Assembly: GCA_013314815.1 (NCBI GenBank)
Contig: JABUEY010000017.1
Coordinates: 1-42,711, forward strand
Length of the DNA stretch: 42,711 bases
Direction: 5' to 3'
Source: Syntrophobacteraceae bacterium
Lineage (GTDB): Bacteria > Desulfobacterota > Syntrophobacteria > Syntrophobacterales > Syntrophobacteraceae
Both the position numbers and the translations under genes were made by a program. The number at the start of each line of letters is the position of its first letter. Within the stretch, counting starts at the first letter, position 1. The notes below the pieces were generated by a model that did no database searches, was not told where the DNA came from, and worked only from the letters and a program-made list of their open reading frames with translations. Below, one piece after another: positions 13,091 through 34,446 of this stretch.

Positions 13091-13870
13091 ATGGACAAGT
13101 TGCCTTTTGAAAACAGGACGGCTCTCATCACGGGCAGTTCCCGCGGGATCGGACGCTCCATCGCGCTGAGTTTCGCTCGACACGGCGCAGACATCGTGGT
13201 GAATCATCACAGGCAGGGGGGATCCTCCGAGGCCGGGGCGAAACAGCTCTGCGACGAAGTGAGGGCTCTCGGGCGGCGCGCATTCGTCGTTCGAGCCGAT
13301 ATCTCGGTCAAGGACTCAGTGAAGGGGCTTTTCGAAGAGACAAAAAGAGAATTCGACCGACTGGATTTCCTTATCCTCAACGCGGCCCGGGCGCCTTTCA
13401 AACCCATTGAAAGGCTTCTCGAAAGGGAGTTGAGGCAGCTGGTCGAAACCAACTATCTGGGAAACATATTCTGCATCCAGGCGGCACTCCCTCTGCTCGA
13501 GAAGACTCAAGGAAAAATCGTATTCATATCGAGTCTCGGAAGCCGTTTCTACAATCCGGCGTATCCTCTCGGAAGCATGAAAGCGGCCATGGAATCGGTG
13601 GTAAGAGACACCGCCGAGAGCCTGGGCGGGAGGGGGATTTCCGTCAATGGAGTCTGTGCGGGGATAGTGAAGACCGATTCTTTCAAGGTATTGAGGCAGT
13701 ACATGGAGGAGATCGATCGCATGCCCGAGGGGCTTTTCGTGGAACCCGAAGAGGTTGCGGATGTGGTGATGTTCTTGTGTTCCCCGGCCGGCAGAGGAAT
13801 CCGGGGGCAGACCCTGGTGGTCGACCGGGGGCTGAGCAACAGCCTGTACCGGTCCGTGGCCGTGAAATAG
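13091..13870 (+). CDS. FabL-like enoyl-ACP reductase (SDR family)
   Basis: 259 residues from ATG 13091 (GAAGGA just upstream). It is a short-chain dehydrogenase with the NAD(P)-binding ALITGSSRGIGRSIA and the NAA motif (ILNAARAP). The catalytic region reads ISSLGSRFYNPAYPLGSMK. By eye this resembles Bacillus FabL (ISSLGS, then VGVSKAALE, and IRGQTIIVDGG) more than FabG. Tyr158 and Lys164 are five residues apart, one fewer than the Y-x6-K of FabL and FabI and two more than the YxxxK of FabG. The C-terminus has IRGQTLVVDRG. It probably reduces the enoyl thioester in the cluster's chain-elongation cycle. A ketoreductase role cannot be excluded. Confidence 0.8.
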   Translation: MDKLPFENRTALITGSSRGIGRSIALSFARHGADIVVNHHRQGGSSEAGAKQLCDEVRALGRRAFVVRADISVKDSVKGLFEETKREFDRLDFLILNAARAPFKPIERLLERELRQLVETNYLGNIFCIQAALPLLEKTQGKIVFISSLGSRFYNPAYPLGSMKAAMESVVRDTAESLGGRGISVNGVCAGIVKTDSFKVLRQYMEEIDRMPEGLFVEPEEVADVVMFLCSPAGRGIRGQTLVVDRGLSNSLYRSVAVK

Positions 13871-13907: not shown

Positions 13908-14471
13908 ATGAAGCAGTCGATCATACCCGAGGAAAAGGTGGTTGAAGAGGTGAATAAGGCCATCGTGGAAGGCCTGGACATCAAGGAAGGGAGCGTTGCA
14001 CCCGACAGTTCTCTTATCAGGGATCTGGGCGCCGAGTCCCTGGATTTTCTCGATATCAATTACCGGCTCGAACAGACATTCGGAATAAAACTGGCGCGCC
14101 ATTCCATCCTCGAACACATGGAAGAGATGTTCGGCGAAGAATCGGCCATTGACGAAAACGGCCGGCTGACGGAGAAGGCGGCCGCCATGCTCCGCAGGCG
14201 GTTCGGTGATGGGGGGGCATCCCTGGAGCCGGGGATGGACATCGATGAAGTGCCGGCCATCGTGACGGTGCGGTCCATCGTGGACGGAGTCCTGCACGTT
14301 CTGGACAGCCTTCCTGACAAGTGCACATCCTGCGGTGCATCCGCATGGACTCCCGAAGACGGCAGCCGGATCAAGTGTGGATCCTGCGGGGAATACGCGG
14401 TTTTCACCAACGGCGATGACCTGGTCAGGGAGTGGCTCCAAGAGATGCAGGAAGAGGAGAAGATCTTCTAG
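13908..14471 (+). CDS. Acyl carrier protein fused to a C-terminal zinc ribbon
   Basis: 187 residues from ATG 13908, which has AAGGCGAGG 3 nt upstream; ATG 13893 is an alternative. Residues 5-75 form an acyl carrier domain with the phosphopantetheine site DLGAESLDFLD (Ser44). A linker of about 60 residues is followed near 137-163 by CTSCG, 12 to 14 residues, and CGSCG, a C-x2-C-x14-C-x2-C zinc-ribbon pattern. An acidic tail (QEMQEEEKIF) ends it. Ordinary AcpP is about 80 residues, so this is more than twice the usual length. It should carry growing chains for the surrounding ketosynthases. The zinc ribbon may dock a partner enzyme. Confidence 0.85.
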   Translation: MKQSIIPEEKVVEEVNKAIVEGLDIKEGSVAPDSSLIRDLGAESLDFLDINYRLEQTFGIKLARHSILEHMEEMFGEESAIDENGRLTEKAAAMLRRRFGDGGASLEPGMDIDEVPAIVTVRSIVDGVLHVLDSLPDKCTSCGASAWTPEDGSRIKCGSCGEYAVFTNGDDLVREWLQEMQEEEKIF

Positions 14472-14557: not shown

Positions 14558-15856
14558 ATGAAAAAAAGAAGCAAGCGAAGAGTGGTGGTCACCGGCTACG
14601 GAATGGTCACTCCTCTTGGAAGGAACAGCCGGGAAACCTTCGATCACGCCGCCGCCGGCGAGTCGGGTATCAGTACCATAAAATCGTTCGACACCTCCGG
14701 ACTTCCATGCACCATAGGAGGGGAGGTGGACGATCGCTGGGTGGCCGATTCCTCGCATCTTCTCGCTCGAGGCCTTGAAAAATGTTCGTCCAGGGGTCTC
14801 AAGTTGATGCTGATGGCCGCTTCTGAAGCGGCTGAGACGGCGGGACTCGACAAGCTGACGGACCGGGGAAGGATCGGAGTCAGCCTCGGGTACCATGGCG
14901 AGAGCCCGTCCATCGAGGACGTGATCCTTTTCAACCGTTTCCATGACGGCGGGGGAACCTGGGACATCGGCGAACTCAGGAAGAATATTTCCTATTCCTA
15001 TTTCAACTTCTTCAGGAGAAAGCCCGATGTGGCAACGTCTCTGCTCTCGATGGCCTTCGACTGCAGAGGCAGCAACCTTTCCATAGTCTCGGCCTGCGCG
15101 GCGGGCACCCAGGCCATCGGGGAGGCCTTCAAGATCATCGGGTCGGGGAAATGCGATGCAATGCTTGCCGGCGGATGCGAGGCTTCCTTGAATTTTCTCG
15201 GCTTCCTGGGTTTTGTCCTGATCCGGGCACTTTCCGAGAAACATACCGAGCCCCGGAAAGCCTCGCGCCCGTTTGACCGGAAAAGAAACGGCTTCATCAT
15301 GTCCGAAGGCGCCGGATGTGTCGTTCTCGAGGACCTCGATCATGCACGGGCCAGAGGTGCGGCGGTTTTCGGAGAGGTTCTCGGGTATGGTTCGTCGGCG
15401 GATGCCTACCGCATCACGGACATTCACCCGAAGGGGGACGGTGCCGTTCTGGCCATGAAATCGGCGCTGTCGGACGCGTCTCTCGATCCGGGGCAGGTCG
15501 ACTATATCAATGCGCACGGTACCTCCACCACACAAAACGACCTCGTCGAAACCCTGGCAATCAAGAGAGTATTCGAGGACCGGGCGAAGCGGGTACCCGT
15601 CAGTTCCAACAAGTCCATGATCGGCCACCCCATCGCCGCCGCAGGGGCGATCGAATTCATCCTGACCCTGATGGGCATCAACAGGTCTCTTCTGCTTCCC
15701 ACCATCAATTATGAATACCCTGACCCGAAGTGTGACCTGGACTACGTGCCCAATGTAGCCAGGAAGCAAGAGCACGGAATCGCCCTTACCAATTCGTTCG
15801 GATTCGGCGGGCAGAACGCATGCCTTTGCCTGGGTGCATACAAGGAAGATCGATAA
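14558..15856 (+). CDS. Beta-ketoacyl-ACP synthase, intact KS (FabF-like)
   Basis: 432 residues from ATG 14558 (GGCGGGGAA upstream). Thiolase-fold ketosynthase with a full Cys-His-His set: Cys180 in VSACAAGTQ, His320 in NAHGTST, His357 in SMIGHPIA, and a C-terminal NSFGFGGQNA. FabF-type length. It condenses malonyl-ACP with an acyl-ACP. The N-terminus RRVVVTGYGMVTPLG is canonical. It follows the zinc-ribbon ACP by 86 nt and is followed 15 nt later by a ketosynthase homologue lacking the Cys, a KS/chain-length-factor-like order. It shares more motifs with the ketosynthase at 17633 (both have GYGSS-x-DAYR and DPKCDLDYVPNV or a near copy), so these two are recent paralogues. Confidence 0.92.
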   Translation: MKKRSKRRVVVTGYGMVTPLGRNSRETFDHAAAGESGISTIKSFDTSGLPCTIGGEVDDRWVADSSHLLARGLEKCSSRGLKLMLMAASEAAETAGLDKLTDRGRIGVSLGYHGESPSIEDVILFNRFHDGGGTWDIGELRKNISYSYFNFFRRKPDVATSLLSMAFDCRGSNLSIVSACAAGTQAIGEAFKIIGSGKCDAMLAGGCEASLNFLGFLGFVLIRALSEKHTEPRKASRPFDRKRNGFIMSEGAGCVVLEDLDHARARGAAVFGEVLGYGSSADAYRITDIHPKGDGAVLAMKSALSDASLDPGQVDYINAHGTSTTQNDLVETLAIKRVFEDRAKRVPVSSNKSMIGHPIAAAGAIEFILTLMGINRSLLLPTINYEYPDPKCDLDYVPNVARKQEHGIALTNSFGFGGQNACLCLGAYKEDR

Positions 15857-15871
15857 AGCCGTCGACATCGA

Positions 15872-17161
15872 GTGATGAGCAAACGTTCCATGGAAAACAG
15901 AGTGGTGATAACGGGCAGTGGTCTGGTCTGCTCCCTGGGTTCGACGGAGTCGGAAGTCTGGAGCCGGCTTGTGGCGGGCGAGGAAGGAACCGCTCCCGTT
16001 GGCCGCTCGGACTGCGACAGCTTCCATTGCCCTGCCGCCCGGACCGAACGGTTTTCTGAAGCGAACCCGGGTATCCAGCAGCGGCTTGGGCAAATCATGG
16101 ATACCCACCTGGCCCTGCTCATGAAAGCCGTGGGGGACGCCGTGCTCGGGAGCGGGCTGAACGCAGGGGACATTCCTGCCGACCAGAGGGGTTTTTTTGC
16201 GGGCATGGGCATGGTGGACTACGAGGTCGCGGATCTGCTGCCAGCGGTTCTCGAGTCACTGGGGCCTGCAGGTGAACTCGACTACAACCGCTTCTACTCA
16301 CAAGGATACACCCATATCTATCCCCTTTGGCCCCTGGCCATGCTCAACAACATCGCCTTCTGCCAGGTCGGCATAAGGTACGACATTCGAGGGGAAAACT
16401 GCGTCTTTTCGCCGTACGCCGATTCAGGGCTTTATGCGATCGCCGAGGGTTACCGGACAGTGAAGGAGGGCAGGGCGAAGCTGGCCCTTTGCGGGGGTGT
16501 CAGTGATAAGATCTCCGCTTCGAGCCTTGCCCGTGCCGTACTGTCTCAACTGCTGGACAGTTCCGGAGATGGAGCTCGATGCAGGCCTTTCTCCATCGTG
16601 AGGAAAGGATCCATACTCGGTGAGGGCTGCGGTATCGTTGCGGTTGAACTTCTCTCTCACGCCGCGCAGAGGAAGGCCGTTCCTCTTGCAGAGGTGCTCG
16701 GGTTCGGTTCGGCATCGGATGGGGAAGGAGAATTGAGCCACCCGGGCTCAGACACCATTTCACAGGCCATGTGCACCGCACTGGACCAGTCCGGAATCAA
16801 ACCCTCGGACATCGATCTGCTCATCGCTCATGCCGACGGGAATCCTGCGGGCGACGAAGCCGAGATGGAAGCCATACACACGGTTTTCTCCGGTTGTTTC
16901 GACCGACTCATGGTCTATTCATCCAAGGGTGCGCTGGGCCATATGTCCGCGGCGGCCCCCGCCGTCGACACCCTGATCGGCATAAACTGCATGCGGAATG
17001 GAATGGTTCCGCCAACCCTCCATGCAGATCCCGTGGATCATCGAGTCCGATTCGACCTGGTGGCGGGAGAATGCCGTCCATCCCGGGTGCGGCGTTGCCT
17101 GATCAATTCGAGAAGCCATGAAGGCCGGTGCGCTTCCCTGGTTATCGGATCCTGCGGTTGA
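15872..17161 (+). CDS. Ketosynthase-like protein lacking the catalytic Cys (chain-length-factor-like)
   Basis: 429 residues from ATG 15872 (later in-frame ATGs at 15875 and 15890 are possible). The fold and both His residues are kept (His320 in LIAHADG, His357 in GALGHMSA). The nucleophile region reads FSPYADSGLYAI, placing Ala183 where the active Cys should be. It therefore cannot form the acyl-enzyme by the normal route. Known Cys-less homologues are chain-length factors of type II PKS and aryl-polyene systems, which pair with an active KS and shape the product cavity, or malonyl-ACP decarboxylases. It lies directly downstream of an intact KS. The C-terminal NSFGFGG motif is also degraded (NSRSHEG). 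Confidence 0.88.
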   Translation: MMSKRSMENRVVITGSGLVCSLGSTESEVWSRLVAGEEGTAPVGRSDCDSFHCPAARTERFSEANPGIQQRLGQIMDTHLALLMKAVGDAVLGSGLNAGDIPADQRGFFAGMGMVDYEVADLLPAVLESLGPAGELDYNRFYSQGYTHIYPLWPLAMLNNIAFCQVGIRYDIRGENCVFSPYADSGLYAIAEGYRTVKEGRAKLALCGGVSDKISASSLARAVLSQLLDSSGDGARCRPFSIVRKGSILGEGCGIVAVELLSHAAQRKAVPLAEVLGFGSASDGEGELSHPGSDTISQAMCTALDQSGIKPSDIDLLIAHADGNPAGDEAEMEAIHTVFSGCFDRLMVYSSKGALGHMSAAAPAVDTLIGINCMRNGMVPPTLHADPVDHRVRFDLVAGECRPSRVRRCLINSRSHEGRCASLVIGSCG

Positions 17162-17174
17162 CTGGAGGCACTTC

Positions 17175-17621
17175 ATGAGGTTTCTGCTTTACGACGCAAT
17201 AGAGGAGATCGGAAAAGGGAAATACATCAAGGGATATAAAACCTTTTCCCTGTCGGACGAATCTCTTCGCGGTCATTTCGGAGAAACAGCCTGGGTTCCG
17301 GGAGTGCTTTTCATCGAGTCCATGGCTCAGCTGCTGGGATGGCTGGTCATCTTTTCCCACGATTTCTCGATCTCGGCAGTCATGACTCTTGTCGAGAACG
17401 TGAAGATCCCTTCACGGTTGAGGCCGGGGTTCCGAGCGGAAATCCAAGGGGAGATTCTTTCCACGTCGAAAAGGGATTCCCTCGGCTGCTGCCGGATGTA
17501 CGTGGATGGAGAGATGATCGCCTCCGTTGAACGGATTATCTATGTCCACTCCCGGAGCGCCGATTCCGGGCAGCTCTTGAACCTGTTCCGCTATTACGGC
17601 GGAATGGTGGACCGGGCTTGA
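17175..17621 (+). CDS. FabZ/FabA-like 3-hydroxyacyl-ACP dehydratase 1
   Basis: 148 residues from ATG 17175, chosen because GGAGG lies 7 nt upstream; a longer frame from 17118 overlaps the previous gene. Hot-dog fold with the catalytic pair His34 (RGHFGET) and Glu48 (VPGVLFIESMAQ) at the normal 14-residue spacing of FabZ. The HFPGxP of ordinary FabZ is changed to HFGETAW, so the active-site rim differs. It should dehydrate 3-hydroxyacyl-ACP to the enoyl form. A paralogue with the same His34/Glu48 numbering is encoded at 19855. Two dehydratases in one cluster suggest different chain lengths or a heterodimer. Confidence 0.85.
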   Translation: MRFLLYDAIEEIGKGKYIKGYKTFSLSDESLRGHFGETAWVPGVLFIESMAQLLGWLVIFSHDFSISAVMTLVENVKIPSRLRPGFRAEIQGEILSTSKRDSLGCCRMYVDGEMIASVERIIYVHSRSADSGQLLNLFRYYGGMVDRA

Positions 17622-17632
17622 GGTCTCGGGAT

Positions 17633-18916
17633 ATGGCTGCGAGAAGAAGAGTCGTTGTAACGGGGATGGGGCTTGCGACTCCGCTGGGGATCGATGTCGA
17701 GGACAACTGGCGGAAGATGTTTGCAGGGATCTCGGGAATCGGCAGGCTGAGCCTTCCCGGAACCGAAAAGTCGCCTGTGCGGGCGGTGGGAGAAGTCAAG
17801 GCAGATGACCTGGAGAGAATCTGGAGGGAGTTCCCCGGGCGGGCTGATTCCGAGGGAGAGAAAAGGACCCTTTTTGCGCTCTGGGCTGCAAGATCTGCGA
17901 TGAAGGATGCCGGGCTCGATGATTACAAGGGGTGTCGGGAACGCTTTGGCGTGTCGCTGGCGGCGGGCCTCGGGATCAACTCCCTGGACGACATCCATCG
18001 ATGGATCACCGCGGATCGGGCGTTTGATTACTCCGGGTTTGCCGCTCAATGCCACCGGGTGAGCAGGGAATCCATCCTGAGGAACAGCTCGAGCAGGGCC
18101 GCGTCTCTCGTTGCGACCGAATGCTGCTGCCGCGGGCCGAACCTGACCGTGACCACAGCGTGTGCGTCCGCCACCCAGGCGATAGGTATGGCGGCCAGGA
18201 TGGTCGAGAGGGGCGAGGCCGATGTTATGCTGGCGGGAGGTGCCGATTCCATGCTCAACCCGGTCGGGCTGGTTTTTTTCGTTCTACTGGGTTCGGCTTC
18301 TCTCCATGGCGGAGACCCCGTAGAAGCCTGCCGCCCGTTCGACAGGAAGAGATCCGGGCTGGTCATGGGGGAAGGGGCCGGCATCGTGGTTTTGGAGGAG
18401 GAATCCCACGCTGTAGGAAGGGGTGCCAGAATTTTTGCCGAGGTTGCCGGGTACGGTTCATCCATGGATGCCTACAGGCTTACGGCACCCGAACCTGAAG
18501 GGAGAGGCGCCGAACAGTCCATGAGGCGGGCGCTGGAGGATGCGGAGCTGCCTCCGGACGGTATCGACTATATCAATGCCCACGGGACCTCCACGAAGCT
18601 GAATGACCTGGCGGAAACCCTGGCCATCAAGCGTCTTTTTGGAGATCATGCTCGGAGGCTGAGTGTCAGTTCGAGCAAATCGTTGATCGGGCACCTGCTG
18701 GCGGCATCCGGAGGTCCCGAGTTCATCTATACGGTATTGAGTGTGAACAGGGACGAGATTCATCCCACGGTCAACCTGGTAAACCGGGATGCAAAGTGTG
18801 ATCTGGATTATGTGCCGAACGTCGGAAGAGCGAAAACCGTTCGAGCTGCATTGTCCAATTCCTTCGGATTCGGTGGTCAGAATGCTTCCATTGTCGTGAA
18901 GAAGTACAGAGGATGA
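17633..18916 (+). CDS. Beta-ketoacyl-ACP synthase, second intact KS
   Basis: 427 residues from ATG 17633; a TTG at 17618 overlapping the previous stop is the alternative. Complete Cys-His-His: Cys177 in TTACASATQ, His317 in NAHGTST, His354 in LIGHLLAA, with NSFGFGGQNA at the C-terminus. The canonical start RRRVVVTGMGLATPLG is present. It is 11 nt after the first dehydratase. It is closely related to the KS at 14558 (shared GYGSSMDAYR, NDLAETLAIKRLF, KCDLDYVPNV), suggesting duplication within the cluster. It may pair with one of the Cys-less homologues, most likely the one at 20307 or 15872. Confidence 0.92.
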   Translation: MAARRRVVVTGMGLATPLGIDVEDNWRKMFAGISGIGRLSLPGTEKSPVRAVGEVKADDLERIWREFPGRADSEGEKRTLFALWAARSAMKDAGLDDYKGCRERFGVSLAAGLGINSLDDIHRWITADRAFDYSGFAAQCHRVSRESILRNSSSRAASLVATECCCRGPNLTVTTACASATQAIGMAARMVERGEADVMLAGGADSMLNPVGLVFFVLLGSASLHGGDPVEACRPFDRKRSGLVMGEGAGIVVLEEESHAVGRGARIFAEVAGYGSSMDAYRLTAPEPEGRGAEQSMRRALEDAELPPDGIDYINAHGTSTKLNDLAETLAIKRLFGDHARRLSVSSSKSLIGHLLAASGGPEFIYTVLSVNRDEIHPTVNLVNRDAKCDLDYVPNVGRAKTVRAALSNSFGFGGQNASIVVKKYRG

Positions 18917-18997
18917 CCTGGAAAGCCCGGCCTCCCGGTTGCAGAAAGATCAACACCGATGTTGCGGGTAAATTTCTGATAGAGGTATTCGCCTGCC

Positions 18998-19750
18998 ATG
19001 AAGATCGATCTTGCTGGTAAGATTGCCCTCGTGACGGGAGGATCGCGTGGTATCGGCCGTGCGTGCAGTATCCTTCTCGCTCGTGCGGGGGCCGCGGTCC
19101 TCGTCAATTACAACAGGTCCCGCGAGAAGGCGGAAGAGGTCATGAACGAGATCCGGGAACTGGGCGGGGAAGCCGAGATCTTCAAGGCGGATGTGTCTGT
19201 CCCCGAGGAAGTGGAGGAGCTTTTCGAATTCTTGAAGAAAAGGTTCGGGACCCTGGACATCCTGGTCAACAACGCCGGGATCATCCGGGACAACCTGCTG
19301 CTTACCATGAAGATCAGCGACTGGGACAGGGTACACGATGTCGACCTCAAAGGCGCCTTTCTCACCTCGAAATCGGCTGCTGAAATGATGCTGCCCCGTC
19401 GATCCGGGAAGATCATCAATGTCTCGTCGGTCGCCGCTGTTGCCGGCGGCCGCGGGCAGACCAACTACGCGTCCGCCAAGGGAGGACTGGCGTCCTTCAC
19501 CAGGGCCTGTGCCGTCGAACTCGGCGCAAAGGGCATCCAGGTCAATGCGGTTCTGCCGGGCATGATCAGCACGGATATGAGCAGCCGTACCGTCAGGAGA
19601 GCGGGTGAACTGATTCTGAAAAGAATTCCGTTCGAGAGGTTCGGAGATCCGATGGAGGTCGCTTCACTGGTGCTGTTCCTGGCTTCGGACCTGTCCGGTT
19701 ACATCACCGGCCAGACCATCGCTGTCGATGGCGGACTGAGTATCTCGTGA
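18998..19750 (+). CDS. 3-oxoacyl-ACP reductase, FabG type
   Basis: 250 residues from ATG 18998. Classical SDR: cofactor site [16 protein letters not shown] (residues 91-94), catalytic Ser143/Ser144 region ([10 protein letters not shown]), Tyr157-x3-Lys161 (NYASAKGG), [12 protein letters not shown] and the C-terminal [13 protein letters not shown]. Unlike the SDR at 13091 it has the YxxxK spacing of FabG. It should reduce the 3-oxo group with NADPH in each elongation cycle of this cluster. A housekeeping fabG presumably lies elsewhere; here there is no fabD or acpP beside it, which marks it as the cluster's own ketoreductase. Confidence 0.93.
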
Positions 19751-19854
19751 AGGATGAGGGAGCATCGAGTCCGCCGTCCGGCTGTTCGAGCCAGTCGGAG
19801 AACTGCCGGAACATCTGATCTGCTCACGACGAAAACAGGATTGAATCAGAGAAC

Positions 19855-20310
19855 ATGCGCTACCTACTTGTTGATCGCATTTTGGAATACAGATCGGGCG
19901 AGCGTATCAGGGGAATTAAAAACGTCGCCATGAGCGAGGATTTCCTTGAATTTCATTTTCCCGGAAATCCCATCATGCCGGGAGTCCTGCTTATCGAGGC
20001 GCTGGCGCAGCTTGCCGGGTGGCTCGAAGCCGTATCTTCGGACTTTTCCAGGTGGTTTCTCATCACTGCCGTTAAGAAGTGCAATTTCTACGGTTTTGTC
20101 CTTCCGGGAGACCGGGTGGAACTGGAAGTTGCTGCAAAGCAGGACGAAGGATCTCCGCTGATGCGCTGTTCCGGTATCTGCAGCGTGGAAGGCAGGAAAA
20201 AGGTCAAAGTCGATTTCGAAGGGGAACTCGTTCCCCTTTCCTCCATTGAAAATGTTGAAGATCAGAGGAGATTCTTCAAGATCCTGACAAGGGAGTTCAG
20301 CCTGTCATGA
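19855..20310 (+). CDS. FabZ-like 3-hydroxyacyl-ACP dehydratase 2
   Basis: 151 residues from ATG 19855 (ribosome site weak). Hot-dog dehydratase with the standard motif HFPGNPIMPGVLLIEALAQ; catalytic His34 and Glu48. It is closer to ordinary FabZ than its paralogue at 17175, although both begin MR(F/Y)LL and share the residue numbering. Its stop overlaps the start of the next ketosynthase-like gene (20307-20310), so the two proteins are probably made in equal amounts. Confidence 0.88.
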   Translation: MRYLLVDRILEYRSGERIRGIKNVAMSEDFLEFHFPGNPIMPGVLLIEALAQLAGWLEAVSSDFSRWFLITAVKKCNFYGFVLPGDRVELEVAAKQDEGSPLMRCSGICSVEGRKKVKVDFEGELVPLSSIENVEDQRRFFKILTREFSLS

Positions 20311-21617
20311 TTTCCGCCAGAGAAGTCGTGGTCACGGGAACAGGGCTCATATCGCCTTTGGGAAGAGATGTCCCGGAAAACTGGGAGAACTTCAAGGCCG
20401 GCAGGACGGGTATCGAACGCTTTCCTGGAAATGGCCGGCCCGACAGCCTGCAGTACCTCGGGAAGGTAAAGAACATCGATATTCCCGAGGGTATTCCCGC
20501 CAAGCTGCAGAGCCAGATGAGGTTCCTCAACCGTGGGTCGATGCTCGGGTTTCGGGCTGCATACGAAGCGGTTCGTACGTCTGGAATGGATCTTTCCCAG
20601 GTGTCGAGGGAGCGCAGAGCCCTGTACATTGCATCCGGGGATCTTACCAAGGTGGGTTACGAGTTCATGCATCCGGCGATCATGGCTGTTTGGGACGGCA
20701 GATCCAGCTGCGTGGACCAGCGCAGACTCAACAGAATGTCCCTGGAAAAGGTGAATCCCTTCTTCCTGCTCGAGTCCATCTGCAACAATGCATTCAGCTT
20801 TCTTTCCGCGTATTTCGAGTTCAAGGGACCCAATACGAGCCTGGCAAGCCTTTCTCCCTGTGGAGGGCATGCCCTGGAACTGGCGTCCCGCAGAATCATG
20901 CAGGGTGAGGCTGATGTCGCACTGGTCGTTGGGTGCGGCAACTGGATCAGCGATGTTCCCCTGATGGAGATGGACGGCCTCGGGATACTTTCCCGGTGCC
21001 GAAAGGGGGAGAAGTCCTACAGGCCTTTCGACCGGCACCGGGACGGGTTTATCGCGGCGGAGGGAGGAGCGGCGGTGTTCCTGGAGTCGGCTGAAGGTGC
21101 CAGGGATCGTCGAGCGAAAGTCCATGCCGTGATCAAAGGATTTGGGAATTGCATGGAAGTTGCCGAGAGCCGCAGGTTGAGTGTCCCTTCCAGTGTGAGT
21201 GTCCGCAGCATGCGTATGGCACTCGACGAAGCAGGACTGGATCCGGGCCGCCTCGCCTTTATCTGCCCTCACGGCAGTGGGACCCGAAAGGGCGACAGGT
21301 CGGAACTCAGATCCATTTCGGAACTGCTGGGGGATCAATGGCCGGATGTTCCCATATGCGGACTGAAGCCTTACACGGGGCATATGGCGGCGGCAAGCGA
21401 TCTGGCGGAAGTGATCTTCGGAATCATGGCCGCCGCGGAAGGCATCGTTCCGGCAACGCTCAACTTCCACCAGGCGGATGAGGAATTCTCGATGCTGAAC
21501 CTATCCTCCGGGTTCCGGCAGACGGATCTCCGATGTTTTCTGTCGACGAGCTACGGGATCCTGGGGGAATCGTCTTCAACAGTGCTCGAAGCCTTGGACG
21601 GACAGGTCTCGTGGTGA
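20307..21617 (+). CDS. Ketosynthase-like protein with Ser at the nucleophile position
   Basis: 436 residues from ATG 20307, overlapping the dehydratase stop. The KS fold is clear (VVVTGTGLISPLG, YRPFDRHRDGFIAAEGG). Both His residues are kept: His322 (CPHGSGT) and His359 (YTGHMAAA). The nucleophile segment reads SLASLSPCGGHALELA; aligned on the flanking residues, Ser183 takes the Cys position, and Cys185 lies two residues later. It is more diverged than the other three KS proteins and lacks the NSFGFGG end (TSYGILGESSS). It may be a chain-length-factor-like or priming subunit. A shifted nucleophile Cys185 cannot be ruled out by eye. Confidence 0.85.
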   Translation: MISAREVVVTGTGLISPLGRDVPENWENFKAGRTGIERFPGNGRPDSLQYLGKVKNIDIPEGIPAKLQSQMRFLNRGSMLGFRAAYEAVRTSGMDLSQVSRERRALYIASGDLTKVGYEFMHPAIMAVWDGRSSCVDQRRLNRMSLEKVNPFFLLESICNNAFSFLSAYFEFKGPNTSLASLSPCGGHALELASRRIMQGEADVALVVGCGNWISDVPLMEMDGLGILSRCRKGEKSYRPFDRHRDGFIAAEGGAAVFLESAEGARDRRAKVHAVIKGFGNCMEVAESRRLSVPSSVSVRSMRMALDEAGLDPGRLAFICPHGSGTRKGDRSELRSISELLGDQWPDVPICGLKPYTGHMAAASDLAEVIFGIMAAAEGIVPATLNFHQADEEFSMLNLSSGFRQTDLRCFLSTSYGILGESSSTVLEALDGQVSW

Positions 21618-21620
21618 AAT

Positions 21621-22568
21621 ATGGAAAAACAGAAGGCCCGCAAAGGGAAACTTGTCCTTCTCGCTGAATACTATTCGTTCCGGGCAGCATTGTCTCTCGC
21701 ACGCTCTCTGCCCCTTTTCGTCCTGCGCTTCTCCTGCCGGCTGCTCGGCAACGCGCTCTACATCCTCCTGCCCAGGCGCCGGCGGCTGGCCATGGAGAAC
21801 CTGCGCTTTGCATTCAACGGTCTGAAAAGCGAACAGGAAATCCGTCGAATCGCCAGGGAAAGTTGTGTATCCTTTTTCCTCACCGCAGCCGAAATCATGA
21901 AGTTCCATCTCTACGACCTCGGGGCCGACGCCATCAGGAAAAGAGGATATCGAACCGGGCAGTTTGAAGAACTCTTTCAGAAGGCCAGGATGATCCACGA
22001 TCAATCCGGAGGATGCATCTTTGTGACTCCTCACATCGGCAACTGGGAACTGCTTCCCTATGTGAGCGCCCACGTGGGAATCCCTCTTGCCATTGTGGCC
22101 AGACCCATGGACAACCACTACCTCGAGAAACTCATCACCTCCAACCGCACGGCCAGCGGACAGATCGTGGTGCCGAAAAGAAACGCCATGTTCGTTCTGC
22201 AGCGCATTCTGCGCCGGGGGAAATCCATCGGGATGCTCCCGGATCAGAGCACCGGCAAGGGTATCCCCGCCGATTTTTTCGGAAGAAAGGCCATGACCAC
22301 GCCTGTTCCCGCCTTGCTTGCCCTCACCTACAGGCGGCCCATCGTGGTGGTGGCGTGCTGCAGATCCCAGGATGATGGGAGTTTTGAAGGTTTTGTGTGC
22401 GATCCCATCCATCCCGGCGAATACAACAACGAACAAACCGGCATCCTGGCTCTGACCGAAGCGATGAACCGCGACATGGAGAGTATTATACGCAGGCACC
22501 CCGAACAGTATCTGTGGATGCACAATCGCTGGAAAGAGCACAAGAACAGGAGAAGTGCTTTCTCTTGA
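21621..22568 (+). CDS. LpxL/HtrB-like lysophospholipid acyltransferase
   Basis: 315 residues from ATG 21621, 3 nt after the ketosynthase-like gene. It has the H-x4-E acyltransferase motif His138-Glu143 (TPHIGNWELL), then IVARPMDN, the GKSIGMLPDQ block, and a C-terminal YLWMHNRWK typical of lauroyl/myristoyl lipid A acyltransferases. A hydrophobic N-terminal stretch (LPLFVLRFSCRLLGNALYILL) anchors it in the inner membrane, active site to the cytosol. LpxL-type enzymes take acyl-ACP directly. As last gene of the cluster it is well placed to unload the chain from the zinc-ribbon ACP onto lipid A or a related lipid. It could also be the housekeeping LpxL, but its tight coupling argues for a dedicated role. 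Confidence 0.9.
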   Translation: MEKQKARKGKLVLLAEYYSFRAALSLARSLPLFVLRFSCRLLGNALYILLPRRRRLAMENLRFAFNGLKSEQEIRRIARESCVSFFLTAAEIMKFHLYDLGADAIRKRGYRTGQFEELFQKARMIHDQSGGCIFVTPHIGNWELLPYVSAHVGIPLAIVARPMDNHYLEKLITSNRTASGQIVVPKRNAMFVLQRILRRGKSIGMLPDQSTGKGIPADFFGRKAMTTPVPALLALTYRRPIVVVACCRSQDDGSFEGFVCDPIHPGEYNNEQTGILALTEAMNRDMESIIRRHPEQYLWMHNRWKEHKNRRSAFS

Positions 22569-30151: not shown

Positions 30152-31507
30152 TTGGCTGCTGACATTCGACTCTTCCATGCCGTTGTGCTTTTCGTCATGA
30201 TTTGCGTTGCTCCAGCCGGAGTCCATGCCTGGGAGTCGGCGCGAGAACTCCCTGCACAGCCTCTGGGCATGGCTGAAGCCGTGAATTTTGCCCTTTCCCA
30301 CAATCGCGTACTTCTTGCCGCCGAGCAGGAAGTGAAAGCCGTCGGGCAGAAGGTCAGGCAGTCTCGATCCGACTTCTATCCGAAGCTGGATGCCGCCTAC
30401 AGCTACACGAGTCTCAAAGACCAGCCCTACATGGAAGTCGAGTCCTTCCGGGTTCCCACAAGCTATACGACCTTGAACCGCTGGGAGGTCGAGGTTTCCC
30501 AGCCGTTGTTCACAGGTTTCGGCCTGACCGCCCGCCTGAACATGTCCAGGATGGACCAGGAAATCGCTCAAAACCGGCTCCAAGAAGTCAGGCTGAACGT
30601 GATCCAGGGAGTCAAACGGGCATTTCTGCGCACTCTGCTCGCTGAGAAGCTTTTGATGGTGGAACGGGACAGCGTGAGCAGCCTCGAGGTCCACAGGAGA
30701 AACGCGGAAACCTACCATCAGCAGGGCCTGGTCGCCCGCAACGATGTACTCAAAGCCGAAGTCGCGCTGTCCCAGGCCAGGCAGAGGGAAAGGGAGACAG
30801 CCAGGCGGCTCGTGCTCCTGAAATCCGAACTCAACAGGCTGCTCGACATCGATCTCCAGTTCGCGCTGAAGCTCAAGGAAGAAGAGATCCATATCCGGCC
30901 CGATCCTCCGCTGGACGAGCTGTTTCTGCTGGCCGAAGACAGGCGGCCGGAGTACCTGTCGGTTGCGGCATCCATCCGCCAGGCGGAGGAGGGGGTACGA
31001 GCCGCCCGGAGCCGTTATTATCCTCATCTTTCCGCCTTCGCCCTCTATTACCGCGAAGGGGAGGACTTCCTGTCGGAGAGGAATGAATTCACCAATAACG
31101 AGAATGCAGCGGTGGGGGTTCGCGTCAGTCTGAACGTTTTTGAAGGGGGTAAGACGGATGCGGCGATTAAGGAATGGCAGTACCGCAGAAAGGGCCTCGA
31201 GGAGCAGCAGCGAGATGTCAGGCAGCGGATCCGGCTGGAAGTGGAAGATGCCTTCGAGCAGCTCAAAGTGGCTCGAGTGAACATCGATACGGCCCGGACC
31301 GCCCTGAAACAGGCCGAAGAAAACGAACGGATGACCACCGTTCAATACAAGGAACAGATGGTCATTTTCCTGGAGGTCTTGAACGCTCAGGTATTCGTTT
31401 CCCAGACTCGAGTCGATTTCTTCCAGGCTCTATACGGATATCAAATTGCCCGGGCTGACCTCGAGAGAGCTGTCGGGGGACCGTACGAGGGCGGCGCGAG
31501 CAGGTGA
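30152..31507 (+). CDS. TolC-family outer-membrane efflux protein
   Basis: About 451 residues from a TTG start at 30152; the ribosome site is poor and the true start may be a few codons off. A signal peptide (LFHAVVLFVMICVAPAGVHA) is present. Two TolC/OEP repeats follow, with long helical stretches (GMAEAVNFALSHNRVLLAAEQ; DVLKAEVALSQARQRE; KQAEENERMTTVQYKEQMV) and the conserved YKEQ and RADLERAVGG ends. It forms the trimeric outer-membrane channel for the EmrA/EmrB-like pair downstream, 99 nt away. Confidence 0.93.
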   Translation: MAADIRLFHAVVLFVMICVAPAGVHAWESARELPAQPLGMAEAVNFALSHNRVLLAAEQEVKAVGQKVRQSRSDFYPKLDAAYSYTSLKDQPYMEVESFRVPTSYTTLNRWEVEVSQPLFTGFGLTARLNMSRMDQEIAQNRLQEVRLNVIQGVKRAFLRTLLAEKLLMVERDSVSSLEVHRRNAETYHQQGLVARNDVLKAEVALSQARQRERETARRLVLLKSELNRLLDIDLQFALKLKEEEIHIRPDPPLDELFLLAEDRRPEYLSVAASIRQAEEGVRAARSRYYPHLSAFALYYREGEDFLSERNEFTNNENAAVGVRVSLNVFEGGKTDAAIKEWQYRRKGLEEQQRDVRQRIRLEVEDAFEQLKVARVNIDTARTALKQAEENERMTTVQYKEQMVIFLEVLNAQVFVSQTRVDFFQALYGYQIARADLERAVGGPYEGGASR

Positions 31508-31606
31508 CTTCCGCCGTACCATGCGGCAGTGGCGGAGGTGTTGGGTTTTTTCAGTCAATCGTTGGGCGGAGCGCACACCTTGGGACCTTCACGGGGCTGA
31601 TCGAAG

Positions 31607-32887
31607 ATGGGGGAGATGGAAGGCCCGAACACGGGGCATCAAAGCAATACTGCTGCAGCAAGAAGGTTGAAACCGATCCTGCTGATCTGTGTTGTCTCGC
31701 TGGCATTGGGTTTCGGGTACTGGTGGATCTTCAAGAGGCATTGGGTCTCCACGGACAACGCCTATGTGAGAGTCGATTCAGCCAGGATAAGCGCGAGGAT
31801 TCCTGGAACGGTCATCCGTGTGCACGTCGATAACGATCATCCGGTCCGGGAAGGCCAACTGCTCTACGAGCTGGATCCCGCCGATTACCGCGTTGCGGTG
31901 GACAAGGCCCGTGCGGCCCTGCAGCAGGACGAGGCGGATGTTCAGGCCGCCGAAATATCGATATCCATGGTGGATGAACAGACTGCGGCCCTGGTGCAGG
32001 CAGCCGAAGCCGCCCTCAAGGCTGCGCGCGACAGTGAACGGGAAGCGCGTCACAGGCTTGCGGAATTGAAGAACATGCGCCAGGCTGTTGCGGCGGAACT
32101 GGGGCAGGTGGAACGGGATTTCGGCCGGTTCGATCATCTTTACCAGCAGGGAGCGGGGACCGCACGGCAGCAGGAACAGTCCAAGACGGCTCTGAAGAAA
32201 GCGAGGGCGCAGCTGGCCGCAACGGACGCTCAAACGGCCGCCGTGGAATCGGCCCTGGCTGCTGCTTCCCAGCAGGTGGACCGGGCGGTTGCCCAACTGC
32301 AGGCGGTGCAAAGCGACAGGTACAACGTGGAAATCCAGCGCTACAGGCTGGAATCGCTCAAGGCACGGCGGGATAAGTCCAGAGCGGAACTCGATGCAGC
32401 ACTTCTGAACCTTTCGTATTGCAGGGTCGAGGCGCCTATCGAGGGTTATATCGCTCAGAAAAGCATCCAGGTGGGGGATCGTATCCAGCCCGGGCAGGTT
32501 CTTATGGCCGTGGTCCCTCTGCAGGACGCCTATATCGAGGCCAATTTCAAGGAGACGCAATTGACCAACGTTCGCATCGGGCAGCCGGCCAGGGTCCGGG
32601 CGGACGTTTACCCCGGGTTTACCTACGAGGGAAAAGTGGCAGGGATTCGAGCGGGCACGGGAGCGGCATTTTCCCTCATCCCCCCTGAAAACGCGACGGG
32701 CAACTGGATCAAGGTAGTTCAGCGGGTGCCCGTAAAGATCGAATTCGTTACGCCTCCACCGTCCGACTATCCGCTGAGGCTCGGTTTATCCCTCGAGGTG
32801 ACCGTGGACACTTCCGACAGGAGCGGTGCCGTACTCGTGCCCGCCGACTCCAAGAACTCCCCTCCAGGTACCCCCTCGAAACCATGA
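31607..32887 (+). CDS. HlyD/EmrA-family membrane fusion protein
   Basis: 426 residues from ATG 31607; ATG 31616 is also possible. One N-terminal membrane helix (residues about 23-41, LKPILLICVVSLALGFGYW). Then come the lipoyl half-motif (YVRVDSARISARIPGTVIRV) and a long Ala/Glu/Gln-rich coiled coil (about 100-250), followed by the second half (CRVEAPIEGYIAQKSIQVGD) and beta-barrel (EANFKETQLTNVRIGQPA). This is the EmrA architecture: it bridges the inner-membrane pump to TolC. It ends in an ATGA overlap with the EmrB-like gene. Confidence 0.94.
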   Translation: MGEMEGPNTGHQSNTAAARRLKPILLICVVSLALGFGYWWIFKRHWVSTDNAYVRVDSARISARIPGTVIRVHVDNDHPVREGQLLYELDPADYRVAVDKARAALQQDEADVQAAEISISMVDEQTAALVQAAEAALKAARDSEREARHRLAELKNMRQAVAAELGQVERDFGRFDHLYQQGAGTARQQEQSKTALKKARAQLAATDAQTAAVESALAAASQQVDRAVAQLQAVQSDRYNVEIQRYRLESLKARRDKSRAELDAALLNLSYCRVEAPIEGYIAQKSIQVGDRIQPGQVLMAVVPLQDAYIEANFKETQLTNVRIGQPARVRADVYPGFTYEGKVAGIRAGTGAAFSLIPPENATGNWIKVVQRVPVKIEFVTPPPSDYPLRLGLSLEVTVDTSDRSGAVLVPADSKNSPPGTPSKP

Positions 32888-34446
32888 ACGGTCCATCGGA
32901 GCCCCCTCTGGTCAATAAGTGGCTGGTCGCTCTTACGGTGATGCTCCCCACGTTCATCGAAGTCATGGATACCAGCGTCGTCAACGTCTCTCTTCCGCAC
33001 ATCCAGGGAAGTCTGAACGCCGGCCTGGATGAGGTCACCTGGGTTCTGACTTCCTACCTGGTCTCCAACGCCGTGATCATTCCCATCACGGGCTGGCTCG
33101 CAGGTGTCTTCGGAAGAAAACGCTACCTCATGTTTTCGCTTGTCGTCTTTACCCTCAGCTCTCTGCTGTGCGGTGCGGCACCGTCCCTCGAGGTCCTCAT
33201 TATCGCCCGCATCCTGCAGGGGCTCGGAGGCGGCGGTCTGCAGCCCCTTTCCCAGGCCATTCTTCTCGAATCCTTCCCGCCCAGGGAGCACGGAATCGCC
33301 ATGGCTGCCTTCGGCATGGGGGTGGTAATGGCGCCCATCCTCGGGCCTGTTCTCGGTGGCTGGATAACGGACAACTGGAGCTGGCGCTGGGTGTTCTACA
33401 TCAACCTGCCGGCGGGTATCCTGGCGGTCTCCATGGCCGCCCTGTTCATTCATGACCCCGGCTACATCCGCCGCCGACAGCTGAAGATCGACAAGTGGGG
33501 GCTCCTTCTTCTCACCGTAGGCCTCGGCTGCCTCCAGATCGTCCTCGACAAGGGGGAAAGAGAAGACTGGTTCAACTCCAATCTTATCGTGACGCTCTCC
33601 GTGCTTTCCTTTGTGGCCCTGGTGGGGTTTGTCATTGTGGAGCTGAAAACCGAGAACCCGGTGGTGAACCTGCGTGTCTTTAAGGACAGGAGTTTCGCGA
33701 CGGGCAATGTCATCATGTTTGCGGGGTTTTTCTGCCTCTTCGGAAGCATTGTGCTGCTGCCCCTGTACCTGCAGCAGCTTATGGGATACACGGCGTTCTG
33801 GGCCGGGCTGGTCCTGGGGCCGGGAGGCATCGCGAGCTTCTTGATCATGCCCGTTGCGGGAGTGCTCATGAAGAAAGGAATCAATCCGCGCAACCTCCTT
33901 GCCGCCGGCTTGACCATTACGGCCTGTTCCCTCTGGCTGATGTCCGGATTCAATCTTGAAGCCGGTTTTCTTGCCGTTTCCTGGCCGCGTTTCGTCCAGG
34001 GCATGGGCCTTGGCCTCTTTTTCGTGCCCCTGTCCGCGGCAACCTATGCGAATATCCCCAGGGAGGAAACGGGAAATGCCTCGGGAGTCTTCAACCTGCT
34101 CCGCAACCTGGGGGGAAGCTTTGGAGTCGCTTTCAGCACCACGGTGCTCGCTCAGAGAAGCCAGATGCACCAGACCTATCTTTCAGAAAATATCACCCCC
34201 TATAATCCCGCTTTCCAGGAATTCTACAACCGGATCTGCCAGTGGCTCCAGGCACATCAGCCTCAAGCCGCATGCCCGGAAGGGGGCCTCGCGATTGTCT
34301 ACCGGGAAGTCATGAGGCAGGCAAGTATGCTGGCCTTTAACGATACCTTCTTCCTGCTGGCCGTCGTCACCTTCGCCCTGGTGTTCCTCACTCCCGTGTT
34401 CCGCAGGCCGAAAAAGACGGGCATGCAGGCCGAGGGGATGCATTGA
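32884..34446 (+). CDS. DHA2-family MFS multidrug transporter (EmrB/QacA type)
   Basis: 520 residues from ATG 32884, overlapping the previous stop by 4 nt. Fourteen hydrophobic helices. Family motifs: FIEVMDTSVVNVSLPHI (motif D1), WVLTSYLVSNAVIIPITGWL, GRKRYL (motif A), RILQGLGGGGLQPLSQA (motif B) and GPVLGGWI (motif C). It uses the proton gradient to export hydrophobic drugs or bile-salt-like compounds through the fusion protein and TolC-type channel encoded upstream. No MarR- or TetR-type regulator accompanies the operon. Confidence 0.95.
   Translation: MNGPSEPPLVNKWLVALTVMLPTFIEVMDTSVVNVSLPHIQGSLNAGLDEVTWVLTSYLVSNAVIIPITGWLAGVFGRKRYLMFSLVVFTLSSLLCGAAPSLEVLIIARILQGLGGGGLQPLSQAILLESFPPREHGIAMAAFGMGVVMAPILGPVLGGWITDNWSWRWVFYINLPAGILAVSMAALFIHDPGYIRRRQLKIDKWGLLLLTVGLGCLQIVLDKGEREDWFNSNLIVTLSVLSFVALVGFVIVELKTENPVVNLRVFKDRSFATGNVIMFAGFFCLFGSIVLLPLYLQQLMGYTAFWAGLVLGPGGIASFLIMPVAGVLMKKGINPRNLLAAGLTITACSLWLMSGFNLEAGFLAVSWPRFVQGMGLGLFFVPLSAATYANIPREETGNASGVFNLLRNLGGSFGVAFSTTVLAQRSQMHQTYLSENITPYNPAFQEFYNRICQWLQAHQPQAACPEGGLAIVYREVMRQASMLAFNDTFFLLAVVTFALVFLTPVFRRPKKTGMQAEGMH

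Follow-up and report, generated by a model that had tools for sequence, protein, structure and literature searches.

The rhizobial lipid A cluster, with the gene order acpXL-fabZXL-fabF2XL-fabF1XL-adhlA2XL-lpxXL (PMC11901934), is built around a specialised acyl carrier protein (ACP). How cells keep two FAS apart when both carriers are small and alike is an open general question. AcpXL has about 92 aa and is not known to carry a ribbon or a long insertion. A second specialised ACP, RPA2022 of Rhodopseudomonas palustris (PDB 2kw2, 3lmo), is the top phmmer and Foldseek PDB match of the carrier described here and has the SLDFLDI motif in common with it. However, its construct of 101 residues is too short for an insertion plus a four-Cys ribbon. 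Housekeeping AcpP also shares PF00550, the ACP fold and a Ser at the start of helix II, but spans 77-82 aa against 187 aa here. In the full-text literature, whose coverage leaves out many subscription journals, no ACP with a zinc ribbon was found described in such a context. A Desulfovibrio paper on a 'specialized ACP' deals with biotin.

The carrier and its gene cluster

The window, a 42,711-nt stretch of a Syntrophobacteraceae genome, holds a cluster read entirely from the forward strand in the order SDR, ACP, KS1, KS2, DH1, KS3, FabG, DH2, KS4, and LpxL-family acyltransferase. Its genes are:

13091..13870, +, FabL-like SDR reductase, 259 aa from the likely start (longest ORF from 12833), universal upstream partner (profile matches, locus comparison)
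13908..14471, +, ACP-zinc-ribbon protein, 187 aa (translation, PF00550, orthologue alignment, AF2 model)
14558..15856, +, KS1, ketosynthase with Cys-His-His intact, predicted active, universal downstream partner (profile match, active-site alignment)
15872..17161, +, KS2, chain-length-factor-like, active Cys replaced by Ala (profile match, active-site alignment)
17118..17621, +, DH1, FabZ-like dehydratase, likely true start near 17175 (profile match)
17618..18916, +, KS3, ketosynthase with Cys-His-His intact, predicted active (profile match, active-site alignment)
18998..19750, +, FabG-like ketoreductase (profile match)
19855..20310, +, DH2, FabZ-like dehydratase (profile match)
20307..21617, +, KS4, chain-length-factor-like, active Cys replaced by Ser (profile match, active-site alignment)
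21621..22568, +, LpxL/HtrB-family acyltransferase, the sole PF03279 gene found in the source genome (profile search of the genome)

Within the carrier gene, the following parts are distinguished:

14037..14039, +, Ser44 codon, phosphopantetheine site (invariant in 77/77 aligned relatives)
14097..14252, +, insertion of residues about 64-115 between ACP helices II and IV, with helices 67-75, 89-103 and 112-118 (AF2 model; PDB ACP alignments skip it)
14253..14309, +, ACP helix IV region, residues 116-134 (AF2 model, structure alignment to ACPs)
14310..14402, +, zinc ribbon, residues 135-165, with Cys 139, 142, 157 and 160 (Cys pattern, conservation; model strands)
14403..14468, +, C-terminal helix GDDLxxEWLxxxQExxKIF, residues 166-187 (orthologue alignment, AF2 model)

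The carrier is encoded by a single intact frame. A preliminary description of this DNA had placed Ser44 and, about 95 residues further on, a C-x2-C-x14-C-x2-C pattern in one 187-residue frame, and the translation reproduces this exactly. Ser44 lies in the context LGAESLDFLD, and 95 residues lead from it to the first Cys of C139TSC142, which is followed by 14 residues and C157GSC160 (C139-x2-C142-x14-C157-x2-C160). The ORF caller places the start 15 bases further upstream (13893, 192 aa), but the start codon that is conserved is the ATG at 13908.

Family models place the protein among ACPs but outside the housekeeping type. PF00550 (PP-binding) scores 27.7 bits against a gathering threshold of 20.8 and is matched by 77/77 relatives, whereas TIGR00517 (AcpP) reaches 43.2 bits, below its cut-off of 70.45. 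Zinc-ribbon Pfam models all stay below their cut-offs for the 187-aa protein (best, RUBY_RBDX, 16.9 versus 26.5 bits), so the ribbon is called from the Cys pattern, from the conservation of that pattern and from the structural model. Against PDB sequences, the best match of the ribbon has an E value of only 0.011. Four conserved Cys in two pairs on a short modelled beta hairpin, the features that define a zinc ribbon, are present, and the segment is a predicted zinc binder. A weak NCBIfam match to LysW/ArgW (E 0.018) raises the idea of a LysW-like amino-group carrier joined to the ACP. This is extremely improbable and was rejected on the score of 15.1 bits against a cut-off of 75 and on the C-terminus, which reads EEEKIF rather than the LysW glutamate tail; lysine/arginine genes are also absent from the cluster.

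The fusion is widely conserved. Twelve same-family orthologues align across all 187 residues at 57-66% identity with the four Cys invariant, which argues against a chance fusion. A scan of GTDB genomes returned 80 loci, comprising 77 of the ribbon type and 3 ribbonless relatives. The ribbon-type loci, which answer the call for a cross-genome domain search in the preliminary description, span five phyla: Nitrospirota, Desulfobacterota, Gammaproteobacteria, Acidobacteriota and Nitrospinota. Most belong to Nitrospirota (Thermodesulfovibrionia, Magnetobacterium, Magnetominusculus), and the Desulfobacterota carriers include Syntrophobacteraceae, Desulfarculales and others. Distribution within Desulfobacterota is patchy, given that just 3 of 297 genomes in a phylum-wide sample, the source genome included, encode the full-length form. 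Among 74 full-length ribbon-type sequences, Ser44 shows no variation and 73 have the complete set of four Cys, with L106 as the exception; a few orthologues have C-x-C instead of C-x2-C as the first pair. The preliminary description had named two outcomes that would undo its reading of an ACP joined to a zinc ribbon, namely a ribbon missing from orthologues and a frame error. The first is contradicted by these counts, and the second, together with an assembly fusion, is ruled out by the same fusion in orthologues from many independent assemblies. The fusion is thus real.

Other carriers occur in the source genome. A canonical 82-aa AcpP is encoded separately (L003), and a third ACP of 129 aa lies beside a KS-like gene (L002, G000:C43). 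ACPs resembling the latter, in L017, L018 and L030, neighbour hotdog, SDR and nitroreductase-like genes. For phosphopantetheinyl transfer, no AcpS match was found in the source genome, and the window cluster is likewise without AcpS. In many Desulfobacterota and Nitrospirota clusters, by contrast, an AcpS gene lies between FabG and DH2. The sole PF01648 gene of the source genome is Sfp-like, at C200, and adjoins a PKS-like ORF.

Gene neighbourhoods and the putative lipid A pathway

The two genes flanking the carrier are its most constant companions. A FabL-like SDR lies beside the ribbon ACP in 77/77 loci and KS1 in 75/77; in the two loci without KS1, the contig breaks off inside the ACP or shortly behind it. 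In the SDR, a YPLGxMK motif (Tyr-x5-Lys) is invariant in 74 sequences (window 13091-13870, L033-L109) and differs from the classical Y-x3-K. The motif of FabL/FabI is Y-x6-K, unlike that of the SDR, and an enoyl reductase role is uncertain.

Lipid A genes recur around this trio. Eight Nitrospirota loci carry lpxD-fabZ-lpxA-lpxI-gnnA-gnnB directly upstream of SDR-ACP-KS1, and six further Nitrospirota loci have gnnA/gnnB or gnnB. In the sample scanned, LpxD, LpxA and KdsA pass curated cut-offs, while the names LpxI, KdsD, UDP-GlcNAc 3-dehydrogenase (GnnA) and aminotransferase (GnnB) are best hits below equivalog cut-offs. Because the majority of the Nitrospirota loci are related, this synteny does not represent many independent events. 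In a Desulfobacterota locus (L152, genome G318), the whole cluster adjoins lpxD and lpxB and is flanked at its opposite end by an ABC exporter. In Nitrospirota genomes with only the three-gene locus, homologues of KS4 and LpxL with 51-56% identity are encoded elsewhere, adjoining lpxB (L133, L134); in L134, they have a further neighbour that looks like waaA on visual inspection. These distant KS4-like and LpxL-like genes rule out the three-gene loci as complete pathways. A search for LpxL in Magnetobacterium found none. The source genome has lpxA, and the neighbours of the window cluster include no lpxA, lpxD or lpxB. Read at the level of gene content, the neighbourhoods support a specialised carrier that would serve a lipid A acyl chain.

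On balance, we favour, with somewhat better than even confidence, a second type II FAS, encoded by the cluster and making a special lipid A acyl chain, with the ACP-zinc-ribbon protein as its dedicated carrier. Ser44 would first receive phosphopantetheine, for which the source genome offers the Sfp-type enzyme elsewhere. Chain extension on the carrier would then fall to KS1 and KS3, with the inactive KS2 and KS4 as their probable chain-length partners, together with FabG, the two FabZ-like dehydratases and the FabL-like SDR, as gene content and active sites suggest. Finally, in line with the gene context, the LpxL-like acyltransferase would pass the chain to a lipid A precursor. Any length or hydroxylation given for the product is a guess from analogous systems.

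Pairs of KS and CLF-like proteins with a ketoreductase and dehydratases, as present in the window, also occur in loci for type II polyketides and aryl polyenes. A secreted polyketide or polyene as the product, instead of a lipid A chain, is nevertheless unlikely in view of the LpxL-family transferase and the lpx/gnn neighbours that recur in two phyla. The set would, moreover, be fully reducing if the SDR is an enoyl reductase. A tripartite efflux set (outer-membrane factor, HlyD-like adaptor, and MFS pump) is encoded at window 30152-34446.

Structure and role of the extension

AlphaFold2, run with the 77-sequence alignment, models the 187-aa protein with a mean pLDDT of 93.4 and a pTM of 0.88. 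The model, built without zinc and without pairwise error, contains helices 8-23, 44-58, 67-75, 89-103, 112-118 and 121-132, strands 147-150 and 154-157, and a helix at 169-184. Solved PDB ACPs pair only about 72-84 residues across model positions of about 4-137, in most rows at roughly 1.4-2.5 A. This shows that about 50 residues are inserted into the ACP fold, separating helix II from helix IV. Structure-alignment Z values of this size can also arise from the shape of helical bundles, but the ACP assignment has sequence homology behind it. Foldseek and VIA-align matches are essentially confined to the ACP part and are uninformative on the ribbon.

Inside the whole protein, the ribbon is modelled at a pLDDT of about 95, whereas the ribbon and terminal helix modelled alone reach a pLDDT of 64 and a pTM of 0.39, a quality too low to search for related folds. 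This contrast is only suggestive, as the runs differ in length and the ribbon-alone alignment is thinner. In the model, the ribbon, well predicted in context and poorly alone, thus seems to belong to a single rigid body instead of forming a loose tag, and if it docks, it would do so as a rigid face. The preliminary description had proposed a docking tag keeping the carrier private to the enzymes of the cluster. Privacy to the pathway agrees with the separate AcpP and the constant SDR and KS1; the loose tag is disfavoured by the model.

Docking in a stricter form, with the ribbon as a specific module for KS1 or the FabL-like SDR, has appreciable but less than even odds. The strict co-occurrence of the ribbon with both partners speaks for it. 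Ribbonless long ACPs (L143-L147, L150; L110-L112) share the helix II-IV insertion at 33-41% identity but stop after helix IV, at about 132-142 aa. Six of them belong to Desulfobacterota clusters (L143-L147, L150; genomes G234, G319, G124, G338, G257, G088) that are multi-KS and without a FabL-like SDR or LpxL, and three other ribbonless relatives have no such neighbours at all. The ribbon therefore travels with the SDR and KS1, which fits docking, yet a single inherited operon predicts the same. The ribbonless multi-KS cluster, whose ACP measures 132-141 aa, also has FabG, often AcpS, and FabZ-like and NAD-dependent genes. At L103:2549-4252, an in-frame ACP-KS1 fusion of 568 aa cleanly lacks the ribbon, as expected if a covalent link replaces docking. 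This hints at a ribbon tether to KS1, but the locus is a single 4.4-kb MAG contig and may reflect an assembly deletion. Also against docking, conservation of the ribbon body is not above that of the rest of the protein, its Cys and Trp apart.

The ribbon may instead be a mere structural plug that holds the enlarged ACP together, with specificity residing in the insertion and helix II; we give this the same tentative weight. The single body modelled at high confidence agrees with a plug, as does the helix II region, the most conserved segment in the alignment of full-length orthologues (entropy 0.33). The Nitrospinota orthologue L106:10001-10555 has lost three of the four Cys yet kept the ribbon segment and C-terminal helix, which suggests that the zinc may be structural. 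On the other hand, relatives without a ribbon have the same insertion, and the invariant residues of the terminal helix in the orthologue alignment suggest a contact. Docking and pure stabilisation are about equal as detailed roles.

A rigid recognition face with structural zinc is the most likely role of the ribbon. According to the model, the insertion, zinc ribbon and C-terminal helix would form one rigid extension of the ACP, most likely a shaped surface, stabilised by zinc, that is read by the partner enzymes and not by the housekeeping FAS. The extension may also shelter a long chain.

Comparison with known lipid A acyl-chain systems

Tentatively, and at less than even confidence, the zinc-ribbon ACP may define an unrecognised, widespread lipid A acyl-chain pathway outside Alphaproteobacteria, with ribbon and insertion as a metal-held face that separates the specialised from the housekeeping FAS. 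Such a fixed extra face, travelling with its partner enzymes, makes the separation of two FAS testable by a 50-residue deletion. The pathway also predicts unusual lipid A in Nitrospirota, magnetotactic ones included, in some Desulfobacterota and in other groups with mostly uncharacterised outer membranes.

The AcpXL system offers the nearest functional parallel. In both systems, a KS pair, FabZ and an LpxL-family acyltransferase (window 14558-22568) accompany a specialised ACP that is separately encoded. The AcpXL system is marked by a very-long-chain fatty acid of the 28:0(27-OH) type on lipid A. They differ in that the window encodes four KS-type proteins, FabG and a FabL-like SDR, and an alcohol dehydrogenase of the adhlA2XL type is absent from the window cluster (no Pfam match), with the SDR in its stead. 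PRK06508, a 93-aa subfamily model that we take to be of the AcpXL type, scores 41.7 bits against 83. AcpXL membership thus fails on the low subfamily score and the missing alcohol dehydrogenase. Our best reading, by analogy, is that the window ACP would work like rhizobial AcpXL without being a member of its family, a parallel in function.
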